Below, in pieces: positions 6,288 to 18,372 of a DNA stretch of 27,315 nucleotides. The position numbers and the translations under genes were made by a program. The notes beneath the pieces are model-generated. The model was not told the DNA's origin. It saw only the letters and a list, made by a program, of their open reading frames with translations, and did no database searches. The stretch comes from a virus, in IMG/VR virus record IMGVR_UViG_3300008108_000454, positions 1 through 27,315 of that record, one strand, 5' to 3'. Every line of letters starts with the position of its first letter. Position 1 is the first letter of the stretch.

Positions 6288-7111
6288 TGGACAAACTCCT
6301 CCTCCATAGCCCACATGGGCAAATCAACCATGACGATTTCCGGCGCATAGCCGGGCCATATGCCTGTGCGCTCGCACTCGGCGTATTCGTGCAACGCGCG
6401 CATGACTTCGCGCTCGCCCTGCGCTACGGCAGAAGGCGACAATTCATAGATACCGATCAAGAATGGCGGCTCGCGCTCCAGCGCAATAAATATGAAGCGG
6501 TCAGCTTCAAAGCCCCCAGGCGCGGCCTTCACGCCATGCCGGTAAAATGCTTCCTGCCAATGGTGGCGGTAATTGCCGGCGCTTTTGGCAAACTCGGGCG
6601 GGCTGGCATCAACAGTGGTTTTTAGGTCCACAATAATGCGCTGATCACGGCGCAGGCCATCCACACGCCCCCGGCAAAGCAGGCCAGTCGCATCGTTTTG
6701 CCAGAATACAGACGCTTCCGGCTCCAGCCCAGGCGCCAGCAATTCGCGCGCCGTAGGGTGCGCCATTACCGCGTCTCGGATGGTCGCCAGTTCGTCAAAC
6801 TCGGCCACCTTTAGCAGCGTCTTTCCAGACGCTGCCTCTTCCTCTTTCCAGTCCTTCGTGCCGCGCCGCTCAAGCATGGTGCGGGCATAGCGCGCGTCAA
6901 ACTTGTGAGGTTCCAACAAGGCGCTATGGATTAGCCGCCCGGCATTCATAGCTGCGCTGTCTTTGGACGGCACCAGCGCCTTTGCTGGAGCCTCTGCAAA
7001 CCGCTTTAGGACGCTGCACGATACCGCCTTGGTCGCGCGGTAATCGGCGTCGGGCAGATCAAGGTAAATGCCGGCCCGCAGCTCGGCGGCGATTTGGTTA
7101 GCGGCGGTCAT
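6284..7111 (-). CDS. RecE/exonuclease VIII-like PD-(D/E)XK exonuclease
   Basis: A 275-residue protein with the complete active-site layout of the exodeoxyribonuclease VIII-like family. GRLIHSALL (58-66) is the Gly-x-x-x-His element, E132 lies in the EASVFW strand, D151 in GRVDGL, and D162/K164 in IIVDLKTT. QEAFYRHGV (about 186-194) matches the Q-x-x-x-Y motif of RecB-family nucleases. Such enzymes resect double-stranded ends to give 3' overhangs for recombination. The adjacent conserved gene downstream would be the natural partner. Start 7111 overlaps the pentapeptide gene's stop by ATGA. Activity is predicted from intact motifs. Confidence 0.88.
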   Translation of the reverse strand: MTAANQIAAELRAGIYLDLPDADYRATKAVSCSVLKRFAEAPAKALVPSKDSAAMNAGRLIHSALLEPHKFDARYARTMLERRGTKDWKEEEAASGKTLLKVAEFDELATIRDAVMAHPTARELLAPGLEPEASVFWQNDATGLLCRGRVDGLRRDQRIIVDLKTTVDASPPEFAKSAGNYRHHWQEAFYRHGVKAAPGGFEADRFIFIALEREPPFLIGIYELSPSAVAQGEREVMRALHEYAECERTGIWPGYAPEIVMVDLPMWAMEEEFVQ

Positions 7112-7890
7112 GCTGCACCGCCTTGACGCTTAATTGCGGCGTCAAAGAAATCCAGAATGTCCAGGCTTTCATCGCCAAGCGCGGTGCCTTGCCGCGTGTT
7201 TGTCCAATGCTGGCGCGCGGCTTCCATATCCAGAAAGCGGCAACCAGCTTTGATGAAATAGCCTTCCTTGCAATGCCACAGGAAAAACTCATAACTATCT
7301 GACCGCGTGGCGCGGCGCAGAATGCCGATGGCGGTCTTGTCGTTGATCTTGGCGCCGACAAGGTAGGCGCCGCCAAGGTTGGCGCCGACAAGGACGGCGT
7401 CGGCAAGGTTGGCGCCGCCAAGGTCGGCGCCGACAAGGTCGGCGCCGACAAGGTAGGCGCCGCCAAGGTTGGCGTCGCCAAGGTCGGCGCCGCCAAGGTT
7501 GGCGTCGCCGAGGTTGGCGCCGCCAAGGTTGGCGCCGCCAAGGTTGGCGCCGACAAGGACGGCGTCGGCAAGGTTGGCGCCGCCAAGGTCGGCGCCGCCA
7601 AGGACGGCGTCGGCAAGGTTGGCGCCGACAAGGTAGGCGCCGCCAAGGTTGGCGTCGGCAAGGTTGGCGCCGACAAGGTTGGCGTCGGCAAGGACGGCGT
7701 CGGCAAGGTTGGCGCCGCCAAGGTCGGCGCCGCCAAGGTTGGCGCCGACAAGGTTGGCGCCGCTAAGGTTGGCGCCGACAAGGTTGGCGTCGGCAAGGTT
7801 GGCGTCGGCAAGGTTGGCGCGCTTTCCGCCTTTGCTTTCAAGCCATAGCTTATGCTCCGCCAATACGGCGGCGATTTCTTCCTTGGTCAT
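7108..7890 (-). CDS. Pentapeptide-repeat protein
   Basis: A 260-residue protein. Residues 1-24 form a leader helix ([20 protein letters not shown]). Residues 25-179 are 31 uninterrupted A(N/D/V/Y)LxG/D-type pentapeptides, which fold into a right-handed quadrilateral beta-helix. Residues about 180-260 are a globular C-terminal domain ([20 protein letters not shown], then [14 protein letters not shown]). Some pentapeptide proteins mimic DNA and inhibit gyrase, but others have quite different roles; nothing here fixes which applies. GGAGA about 9 nt upstream supports the ATG at 7890, and both ends overlap neighbouring genes by ATGA. The near-identical 15-bp DNA units keep other frames open across the array, creating spurious ORFs. 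Confidence 0.9.
7354..7818 (-). repeat. 15-bp tandem coding repeat (pentapeptide array)
   Basis: About 31 tandem 15-bp units, seen on the plus strand as variants of AAGGTTGGCGCCGCC, encode residues 25-179 of the pentapeptide protein. Only a few positions vary (GTT/GTC/GAC/GTA and the trailing GCCGCC/GCCGAC/GTCGGC). Nucleotide identity between units is much higher than protein function requires, so the array probably expands and contracts by slippage or recombination. Confidence 0.9.
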
Positions 7891-17341: not shown

Positions 17342-17998
17342 ATGATACCCCTATTCGGCAATGCGACCGTCCTTTGGACTGAGCGCGAAATCGAAGAACG
17401 CGACGCGCTGATCCGGCTGATTGCCGTGATTGTGCGGGACGCTTGGCAGGCGCTTAACCCTGCCGTGACTATGCTCCGGGTCGAGACGCCAATCCTTACG
17501 CCTGCCGAGCATCTTGGCGGGCATATCAAGGCCGGGTTTGAGCTTCTCGGCACTGATCGCGGATATTTGCGGCCTGAGACTACGGCTGGCACGTTTGCGG
17601 CGCTTGGCGCCCTGTTTCCCCAGCAAGCGCAGCGCATGAAGCGCCTGCCGGTGTGCCTTTGGCAAGCCGGGAAGTCCTTCCGGGACGAAGCGCACGGCGA
17701 GACCATGCGCGCCACCAAGCTGCGCCTGCGGGAGTTTTGGCAACAGGAGTTCCAGCTATTCTGCCGGCCTGACACCAAGGCGGACTACATCGGCGCGGCG
17801 CTGGATGCCCTGACCGCGCGCTTTGGCGGCGAGGCTGCCCCGGCTGATGACCTGCCGCATTACAGCCGACGGACGGTGGACTGGCACATTCAGGGCCTAG
17901 AGGTGGCGGGATGCTCCGAGCGGACGGATTGGCCCGACGGCATGGTGTTTGAGGTGGCCATCGGGCTTGATAGGCTGATGGCGCTGAAAACCGCTTGA
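17342..17998 (+). CDS. Stand-alone class II aminoacyl-tRNA synthetase core, GlyRS-like
   Basis: A 218-residue protein with all three class II signatures in order. Motif 1-like RVETPILTP spans 46-54. Motif 2 is GKSFRDE (110-116) with LRLREFWQQEFQLF (127-140). Motif 3 is EVAIGLDRLMAL (204-215), including the invariant arginine. YLRPETTAGTF (75-85) closely resembles the LRPETAQGIF element of glycyl-tRNA synthetase, which favours GlyRS over ProRS/ThrRS/HisRS. There is no anticodon-binding domain, and the protein is far shorter than cellular GlyRS. Such cores can activate amino acids for non-tRNA acceptors or act as RNA-binding paralogues. AAGGAG 7 nt upstream supports ATG 17342. The terminase promoter overlaps its last codons. 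Confidence 0.82.
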   Translation: MIPLFGNATVLWTEREIEERDALIRLIAVIVRDAWQALNPAVTMLRVETPILTPAEHLGGHIKAGFELLGTDRGYLRPETTAGTFAALGALFPQQAQRMKRLPVCLWQAGKSFRDEAHGETMRATKLRLREFWQQEFQLFCRPDTKADYIGAALDALTARFGGEAAPADDLPHYSRRTVDWHIQGLEVAGCSERTDWPDGMVFEVAIGLDRLMALKTA

Positions 17999-18023
17999 CA
18001 AGCCTCTGAATTATTTGTAGGGG
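17995..18023 (+). promoter_or_regulatory. Late (terminase-operon) promoter
   Basis: TTGACA (17995-18000), a 17-bp spacer and TAGGGG (18018-18023). The -35 lies across the stop codon of the synthetase-like gene. The GGG-containing -10 is like those of the divergent early promoters. A start near 18030 would place the hammerhead ribozyme in the 5' leader, about 85-160 nt from the 5' end. Confidence 0.6.
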
Positions 18024-18036
18024 GGCTTTATCATTG

Positions 18037-18072
18037 ACTTTCTGCGCCCGGAGCCTAGCAAGGCTGCCGGGG
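18037..18072 (+). repeat. Leader hairpin repeat, copy 1
   Basis: ACTTT-CTG-CGCCCGGAGCC (18037-18055), then UAGCAA, GGCU, a bulged G and CCGGGG. CCCGG (18047-18051) pairs with CCGGG (18067-18071) and AGCC (18052-18055) with GGCU (18062-18065), giving a 9-bp stem with a 6-nt loop. A second copy lies 179 bp downstream, on the other side of the ribozyme. Confidence 0.75.
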
Positions 18073-18116
18073 ATAGCCGTGGGTTCACCAGGTGGGTGAA
18101 GCAAGTGAACATCTAG

Positions 18117-18190
18117 CCCGGCATTTTGCGCGGCTGACGAGCCCGAAAGGGCGAAACGCTTACGCGTCCCGCGGAGTCGCCCCAGCCGGG
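18117..18190 (+). ncRNA. Type I hammerhead self-cleaving ribozyme
   Basis: Every conserved hammerhead core position is present. Stem I 5' strand is CGCGG (18129-18133), then CUGACGA (18134-18140). Stem II is GCCC-GAAA-GGGC (18141-18152) with the standard G-C closing pair, then GAA (18153-18155). Stem III is ACGC-UUAC-GCGU (18156-18167), with the required A-U pair next to the core. C18168 is the cleavage nucleotide of a GUC triplet, and stem I 3' strand is CCGCG (18169-18173). Stem I extends past an internal loop by CCCGGC (18117-18122) with GCCGGG (18185-18190). Stems II and III are closed and stem I is open, so this is type I. Cleavage is predicted between 18168 and 18169, leaving 2',3'-cyclic phosphate and 5'-OH ends. 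Self-cleavage follows from the family consensus and has not been shown here. Confidence 0.93.
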
Positions 18191-18215
18191 GAATAACTGG
18201 CGACCTAGGCCCACC

Positions 18216-18250
18216 ACTTTAACCGCCCGGAGCCCCACAAGGCCCGGGGC
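18216..18250 (+). repeat. Leader hairpin repeat, copy 2
   Basis: ACTTT-AAC-CGCCCGGAGCC (18216-18234), then CCACAAGG and CCCGGGGC. The 11-bp CGCCCGGAGCC and the ACTTT at the same spacing are identical to copy 1, and CCCGG/CCGGG pairing is kept while the loop differs. It lies 3' of the ribozyme, on the downstream cleavage product. Confidence 0.7.
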
Positions 18251-18271
18251 ATCGTCTCACCTGCCAAGCGC

Positions 18272-18314
18272 AGGAGGAGCATTCGAAGCCGCTCCGGTTA
18301 GCCTGAGCGGCTTC
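18272..18314 (+). promoter_or_regulatory. Orphan strong Shine-Dalgarno followed by stable hairpin
   Basis: AGGAGGAG (18272-18279) is an excellent ribosome-binding sequence but no ATG, GTG or TTG follows at a normal distance; the nearest in-frame candidate is an ATT at 18281 opening a 6-codon frame that ends at TAG 18299. A perfect 9-bp stem (GAAGCCGCT 18285-18293, AGCGGCTTC 18306-18314) follows and is trailed by a weak U-run (CAUUUUC). This could be an attenuator, a terminator or a ribosome-standby site ahead of the terminase operon. Confidence 0.45.
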
Positions 18315-18336
18315 AGCATTTTCATGGAGAGACACG

Positions 18337-18372
18337 ATGGGCACGAAGCGCAAGGGCGGCAAGAAATACTAA
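18337..18372 (+). CDS. 11-residue basic leader peptide MGTKRKGGKKY
   Basis: ATG 18337 has GGAGAG (18326-18331) about 5 nt upstream, and the frame ends in TAA at 18370-18372, overlapping the next ATG as TAATG. The product has six basic residues in eleven. The good ribosome-binding site and exact coupling suggest it is translated, probably to deliver ribosomes to the following gene. Similar Lys/Gly-rich mini-ORFs before terminase genes are something I recall from other phages but cannot verify here. Confidence 0.6.
   Translation: MGTKRKGGKKY

Follow-up and report, generated by a model that had tools for sequence, protein, structure and literature searches.

GOLLD and ROOL are structured phage-borne RNAs of several hundred nucleotides, often found near tRNAs; their function is unknown, and both have Rfam families. 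They serve as a comparison system (as phage-associated RNAs, PMC12286853) for the RNA described here, which is likewise structured and phage-borne but only ~95 nt long and is matched by no Rfam model. Another phage-encoded RNA, the VIPR vrRNA, has a pseudoknotted tail and consists of GGY/NN repeat tracts, and some of its arrays contain hammerheads (preprint PMC13142463). The RNA described here is likewise phage-encoded and pseudoknotted and can carry a hammerhead, as some VIPR arrays do; no GGY/NN tract was seen in it, and its assignment to these arrays was set aside.

Type I hammerheads of phages and prophages have a canonical core and three stems with stem I open, are intergenic, and, in the available part of the source, are reported near integrases and flanking genes, not within such an RNA (Perreault et al., 2011; PMC3088659). 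The hammerhead of the present locus shares this core, these stems, and the intergenic location. In contrast, it is hosted, always in one fixed loop, by a larger conserved RNA, which occurs without it in at least 24 units and is permuted around it in T7-like phages. DNA downstream of the lambdoid promoter PR' tolerates morons and carries sRNA genes (PMC4104026; for phage morons, Juhala et al., 2000, as cited there). Our locus resembles this site of lambdoid prophages in having an extra transcription unit between features that adjoin in relatives, a late-gene leader, a terminator, and non-coding cargo. It differs in that its cargo, a pseudoknotted RNA with a hammerhead, is unrelated; in addition, the resident terminator occurs in duplicate, the phages fall outside the lambdoid group, and no antiterminator was identified here.

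The sequence analyzed, herein referred to as the window, is a stretch of 27,315 nt from an IMG/VR virus record. Like an intrinsic terminator, the element repeated in it is, in related phages, a GC-rich hairpin followed by a T-run before the next gene. Unlike an ordinary terminator, it is present twice with a unit inserted at it. In the window itself, the T-run is absent after the 3' arm of both copies, so that the two are referred to as former or displaced terminators.

Hairpin Repeat and Probable Terminator Sites in Related Phages

A repeat search of the window revealed a direct repeat, 18037-18064 and 18216-18243, with 22 of 28 positions identical and a distance of 179 nt. Its exact core, CGCCCGGAGCC, occurs twice in the whole window (18045-18055 and 18224-18234). 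Among 300 dinucleotide shuffles of 17999-18330, an ungapped self-match of 22/28 was obtained in 2 and an 11-mer repeat in 5. These statistics are unusual and alone leave some doubt; the comparison with relatives decides. The hairpin repeat flanking the ribozyme, as proposed in an earlier note on this DNA, is real: both copies fold (left, -18.1 kcal/mol, z -2.2; right, -15.5 kcal/mol, z -1.6), their loops differ (TAGCAA and CCACAA, respectively), and the pattern GCCCGGAGCC..CAAGGC..CCGGG is common to both. However, the homologous copies are shorter than proposed (Table 1) and exclude the ACTTT prefix. Its presence before both copies looks coincidental, because the right ACTTT is the end of the inserted unit and the left one is resident flank, absent in the relative L065. 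As the note also stated, the copies lie on opposite cleavage products, on either side of the predicted hammerhead cut.

Table 1. Features of the locus (positions in the window)
Feature	Position	Strand	Description
Promoter-like conserved motif	17994-18019	+	CTTGACAAGCCTCTGAATTATTTGTA (TTGACA, then AT-rich stretch); just 5' of the terminator, in filled and empty sites alike
Left hairpin copy	18046-18071	+	GCCCGGAGCC-TAGCAA-GGC-TG-CCGGG; runs on from the left flank; inserted unit replaces the T-run
Inserted unit, 153 nt	18072-18224	+	Conserved phage RNA with embedded hammerhead; absent at empty sites
X-CGUGGG box	18077-18083	+	X5 = C18077; G18081 forms long-range pair with C18197
P2 hairpin	18084-18109	+	Strands 18084-18088 / 18105-18109; loop contains the P3 5' strand
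CAUCURGCCCGGC box	18110-18122	+	CCCGGC 18117-18122 pairs with GCCGGG 18185-18190 (P5)
Type I hammerhead, open at stem I	18129-18174	+	Linker between the RNA halves; predicted cleavage after C18168
3' half	18169-18215	+	X3-CGCGGA; P4 18176-18180 / 18200-18204; loop GCCGGGGAAUAACUG 18185-18199; P3 3' strand 18210-18215
Right hairpin copy	18225-18250	+	GCCCGG-A-GCC-CCACAA-GGC-CCGGGGC; contiguous with the right flank in relatives
Extra intergenic segment	18251-18325	+	Own strong hairpin 18285-18314 (-22.2 kcal/mol), then AGCATTTT
11-codon ORF MGTKRKGGKKY	18337-18372	+	Between terminator and terS-like gene

Close relatives were fetched with the neighboring aaRS-like and terS-like proteins as bait, and the same intergenic region was read; all relatives at this site are metagenome contigs. 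Empty sites, with exactly one hairpin copy and no unit, were found in 9 related contigs representing 5 distinct sequences (L141, L142, L143, and L152-L157). These sites have the order aaRS-like or other gene, TTGACA..TTATTTGTA, one hairpin, TTTTT, the ORF MGTK[KR]KGGKKY, and terS. Their intergenic sequence reads as conserved CTTGACAA..TTATTTGTA, ~20-25 less conserved nucleotides, GCCCGGAGCC-NNNCAA-GGCTGCCGGG, and TTTTT. This hairpin with its T-run is plain intrinsic-terminator sequence, at which termination is predicted. To the left of the junction, the window and L143 are identical at 75 of 78 positions, and the left copy of the window equals the single terminator of L143, letter for letter, up to CCGGG. 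The CCACAA loop of the right copy was also found in L141 and L152. The two copies represent different hairpin alleles, TAGCAA with UG and CCACAA without UG.

Filled sites at the same terminator were found in the window, L065, L069, L127, and L134. All have the hairpin, a unit of ~150 nt replacing the T-run, and a second hairpin. Two hairpin copies are present in the window, L065, and L127, and three in both L069, which has two different units (of the GUGGG/AACUG and GUUGG/AAAUG types), and L134. The right copy in L065, L069, L127, and L134 runs straight into TTTTTCATGGAGA (TTTTT) and then the right flank; its arms vary among relatives yet fold at -13.5 to -19.8 kcal/mol. Aligned empty and filled sites show that the insertion separates two features adjacent in close relatives. 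Since there is one copy in the empty relatives and two in the filled ones, the repeats can be read as a terminator duplicated around an insert, and we consider it highly probable that the hairpins are the resident terminator, with one copy on each side of an inserted RNA cassette. Among the options listed in the earlier note, the scars of an insertion are thus borne out by the unit-less relatives, with their single hairpin in the same place. The insert, however, is not only a ribozyme unit, as was supposed there, but a whole conserved RNA with the ribozyme, and the hairpin is a resident terminator outside the ribozyme. One-copy relatives without conserved pairing had been named as the opposing case; one-copy relatives do exist, but they keep the pairing and lack the unit.

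The same terminator carries other insertions. A quite different insertion of ~95 bp was found in L158, again with the hairpin on both sides, and L134 has three hairpins because it contains both the L158-type insertion and the RNA unit. The left junctions differ between the two kinds of RNA unit (after CCGGG and after AAGGC), which therefore imply at least two insertion events. Taken together, these sequences suggest that the terminator is an insertion hot spot and is recurrently invaded. Another, unrelated module (CACYTGCCANGCGCAGGAGGAGCATTCGA plus hairpin) takes shifting positions around this terminator in L158 (2764-2991), L134, and the window (18251-18325). Part of the L158 module, recognized by a shared 29-nt pattern, lies behind the right copy of the window, where an insertion of ~66 nt displaces the T-run; in L134, 29 nt of the window segment recur upstream of the unit. 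The hairpin of this segment, together with the following AGCATTTT, may now serve as the terminator of the window.

The identity of the aaRS-like gene to that of the window is 96% in the empty L141 and L142 and 93% in the filled L065; therefore, the presence or absence of the unit is recent. Assembly error is an unlikely cause of the empty contigs, given the agreement among five distinct empty sequences whose flanks differ. The event might also have run in the opposite direction, with the filled state ancestral and empty sites produced by recombination between the direct repeats. Indeed, a crossover in GGC..CCGGG between the left copy of the window and the right copy of L065 gives exactly the hairpin of L143, which might just as well have arisen from a filled site by deletion. 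However, the empty sites have several terminator alleles and different upstream flanks (L141, L152, L153, and L157), and the unrelated insertion of L158 in the same place suggests that the terminator is invaded time and again. Events in both directions are possible, and an ancestral filled state is considered rather unlikely; insertion is the presumed direction.

The proposal that the hairpins are a duplicated protein-binding RNA element, recognized by TerS, an HTH protein, or the synthetase-like protein, draws on the conservation of the hairpin in this group near the corresponding genes. It is nevertheless very improbable: in L152-L158, the hairpin stays though no aaRS-like gene lies directly upstream, both the T-run and the way in which the arms vary while preserving their pairing are as expected of a terminator, and a second copy was never seen without an insertion. 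Moreover, the hairpin is specific to this phage group, and elsewhere the RNA is flanked by tRNAs, outer stems, or unrelated terminators.

The promoter-like motif upstream of the terminator aligns in 11 sequences, and the ~12 nt that follow it diverge. Its AT-rich half plus the hairpin was found once per record in 7 related records. No promoter was called at the TTGACA motif by a sigma-70 consensus scan, and the motif is regarded here as a putative promoter. A consensus terminator scan missed the bulged hairpin of L065. The ORF MGTK[KR]KGGKKY was found in the window and in 10 relatives, at filled and empty sites alike. The gene upstream of the leader (17342-17998) encodes a compact protein resembling class II aminoacyl-tRNA synthetases, for which glycyl-tRNA ligase is the nearest family, at a level far below the family cut-offs; its homologues were found in large phages of Caulobacter, Brevundimonas, and Sinorhizobium. 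This gene was dropped as a candidate partner of the RNA, its adjacency being confined to the group of the window.

Inserted RNA and Its Embedded Hammerhead

The covariance model R1 matches the window at 18066-18225 (53.6 bits, E 2e-12). A blastn search against phages matched 18077-18210, a span reaching well past the hammerhead, in phages of Arthrobacter, Mycobacterium, and Enterobacter. At least 80 loci were found in IMG/VR by a scan with the most conserved stretch, and further scans added more. The comparison set contains 81 distinct units from phages of Proteobacteria, Actinobacteria, Cyanobacteria, and others. Most of the units were fetched by the motif CCCNGCYGGGGAATAAMTG, so that its conservation is built into the set; P2, P3, P4, and the 5' box provide evidence independent of this retrieval.

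The RNA is ~95 nt long, and its helices P2 and P4, pseudoknot P3, and two long-range contacts are supported by covariation. P2 (5 bp) is 95-100% paired over the 81 units, with several pair types and paired changes, and P4 (5 bp) is 96-100% paired, with double changes. P3, formed in the window by GGUGGG 18091-18096 with CCCACC 18210-18215, is present in all 81 units with 6-10 bp and a sequence different nearly everywhere. A conserved segment, CAUCUGGCCCGGC, lies between P2 and the X-CGYGGA box. Within the P4 loop GCCGGGGAAUAACUG, GCCGGG pairs with CCCGGC to form P5, for which a swapped version, CCCGCC/GGCGGG, was found in Pectobacterium phage Pappous, and C/A pairs with G/U of the 5' box. The latter contact (a4-g13) is G-C in 62 and U-A in 19 of the 81 units, and the other (c11-g3) is G-C in 75 and A-U in 5 of 81. 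A helix P1 between the two CGYGG boxes was rejected, as a4 covaries with g13 instead. In the 24 hammerhead-less sequences, all 408 of 408 cells pair, and double changes were found at 12 of 17 pairs (64 double-change cells vs. 15 in shuffles).

The nucleotides X5 (18077) and X3 (18169) preceding the two boxes are identical in 80 of the 81 units (C in 37, G in 31, U in 11, and A in 1), the exception being C/U. Which letter it is differs freely from unit to unit, and the identity is not accounted for by any other aligned column. Candidate explanations are that both boxes pair alternatively with a single partner, or that a base triple is formed.

The hammerhead core read from the window consists of CUGACGA (18134-18140), GAAA (18153-18156), and GUC ending at 18168, with stems I-III. 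The Rfam model HH9 matches it with 26.5 bits (E 0.01), below the gathering score of 52, which is a curators' threshold and not a mechanistic feature; in the relative L005, Hammerhead_1 scores 28.7 bits (gathering score 34). Where present, the hammerhead is located between GGCCCGG and X-CGYGG, with the predicted cleavage site immediately 5' of X; units without it, at least 24 in number, have only a few nucleotides at that loop. In T7-like phages, the RNA is circularly permuted, in the order hammerhead, 3' half, closed outer stem, and 5' half, and therefore tolerates a break exactly at the hammerhead loop. In phage phiKDA1, which lacks the RNA, the same outer hairpin, GAGCA(C/T)TG..CAGTGCTC, encloses other sequence, which is another case of a unit placed inside a hairpin. 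Mycobacterium phage Gaia (L004 2500-2610) has the core UUGAUAA instead of CUGANGA while the host RNA is kept; its hammerhead is perhaps an inactive guest.

Searches of Rfam 15 with the window gave no match to the unit apart from hammerhead HH9; with five hammerhead-less loci, nothing at E<=1 covered the unit. A search of the relatives likewise revealed a host RNA without a known family, and a literature search on the conserved letters of the RNA returned no relevant paper. Thus, as far as the literature searched goes, the inserted RNA with its guest ribozyme is undescribed. No tRNA was found in the window by ARAGORN, and a plasmid search with one unit gave no match. An internally repetitive stretch of the window (7108-7890, minus strand), encoding a pentapeptide-repeat-like protein (ANLxGANL..), weakly mimics a microRNA model in Rfam.

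Distribution and Flanks of the RNA

The unit occurs as a module of its own in many other contexts. Its cultured or annotated carriers include Arthrobacter phages Karkharias and Constance, Mycobacterium phages Gaia and phiGD24-3, Microcystis phage Mwe-JY26, Enterobacter phage SDFMU_EhYP, and Pectobacterium phage Pappous. In most of the genomes scanned with the model, one copy is present. A tRNA was found within 1.2 kb of 26 of 83 units, always on the same strand and often less than 20 nt away on one or both sides. In the Arthrobacter phages L002 and L003 (2420-2500), T-arm plus acceptor-like tRNA ends lie directly 5' of the unit, with no ARAGORN call; in Gaia (L004 2406-2472), a 67-nt annotated 'tRNA-Ser' was not called by ARAGORN. 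The spread over distant phages and the location in tRNA clusters suggest, as a guess, that the RNA is trans-acting and engages a widely conserved host component. Tandem RNA units with a palindromic spacer between them were found in L013 (11030-11447) and L036 (1-1200), one of them spanning the contig ends; next comes an integron-integrase-family gene (TIGR02249, E 4e-87, above cut-off).

The large terminase subunit is the commonest downstream family, though in a minority of units; other locations are the capsid/tail junction and the vicinity of lysin. This neighborhood, and the position of the repeats before terS/terL, could speak for the earlier suggestion that the repeats are DNA sites of terminase (cos/pac). 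However, in most other phages the RNA is away from terminase, in tRNA arrays, between capsid and tail genes, near lysin, or elsewhere; the single site of the empty relatives has the form of an ordinary terminator, the variation of the hairpin is terminator-like, and no end repeats were found in the window. A role as packaging sites is accordingly hardly credible.

An outer stem, P0, of up to 22 bp and of differing sequence closes 33 of the 81 units at p<=0.05, and terminators flank 13 of 81. Therefore, the flanks of the RNA are interchangeable between tRNA, outer stem, hairpin, and terminator, the group of the window having a duplicated terminator. Duplication of a flanking hairpin as a rule of the family was rejected, as it was seen in few lineages in the scan of the 81 units: the group of the window and the TTCGCCC..GGGCAACG hairpin of L033, with diverged copies in L026 and L045.

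The frequency of P0 raises another explanation, namely that the hairpin pair is kept as an outer stem, the left 5' arm pairing with the right 3' arm to close the RNA and hold the hammerhead products. In the second unit of L069, such pairing extends over 13 bp, and the H5-H3 duplex reaches -39.0 kcal/mol, compared with -33.6 for two separate hairpins, before loop closure. Yet a stem between copies of one palindrome forms trivially, and its pairing is therefore no test. Additionally, the single hairpin is conserved in the empty relatives, where nothing needs closing, the outer-stem score in the window, L065, and L127 is no better than for shuffled flanks (p 0.55-0.68), and most units have no outer stem. 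This explanation is regarded as unlikely, and the duplicated resident terminator is preferred.

Proposed Model of the Insertion and Its Meaning

According to the proposed model, a resident rho-independent terminator would lie in the leader between the promoter-like motif and the terS/terL packaging operon. A non-coding cassette, consisting of the ~95-nt pseudoknotted RNA with the hammerhead in its open loop, would have been inserted at this terminator, leaving a ~26-nt hairpin copy on each side, by an insertion of the moron type or by any other that duplicates its target. The left copy would have lost its T-run to the insert, and transcription from the upstream promoter could then enter the RNA; the right copy, with the T-run present in L065, L069, L127, and L134, would end the transcript. 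The hammerhead would cut the RNA once, in the loop, between the two copies, and the halves would be held together by P3, P5, and the a4-g13 contact, optionally also by pairing of the hairpin copies mimicking the outer stem P0 of other members.

The repeat itself is rated as explained by known processes, and the whole as a moron-like insertion with non-coding, ribozyme-bearing cargo. As for the own promoter and terminator of a moron, the terminator is present in the relatives, and the promoter-like motif belongs to the resident leader. Duplicated target DNA at the unit ends amounts to ~26 nt, the copies being different alleles and the junctions differing between insertions. The different alleles imply either that the cassette arrived with its own terminator by recombination or that duplication was followed by change. 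As to transposon hallmarks, the 153-nt unit is too small for a transposase gene, and no conserved terminal inverted repeats were found (P0 in 33 of 81 units). A far-reaching version, in which a mobile non-coding RNA spreads among phages by repeatedly entering and duplicating hairpins or terminators with its own fold taking part, is judged quite improbable; the identical X-CGYG boxes, the tandem units of L013 and L036 beside an integron-integrase-family gene, and the permuted forms would then be traces of this cycle, and the hammerhead would have been acquired for processing, at a point where the RNA already had a break.

A puzzling repeat thus becomes a clean natural experiment, in which close phages with and without a non-coding RNA can be compared at one terminator. 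What this comparison brings to light is a phage RNA of wide distribution, absent from Rfam, with helices and pseudoknots supported by covariation and a hammerhead in a fixed loop. It also provides a concrete context for phage hammerheads, a single predicted cleavage in a compact RNA whose halves are predicted to remain bound, and the identity of two distant nucleotides in 80 of 81 units represents a sharp, testable structural puzzle.
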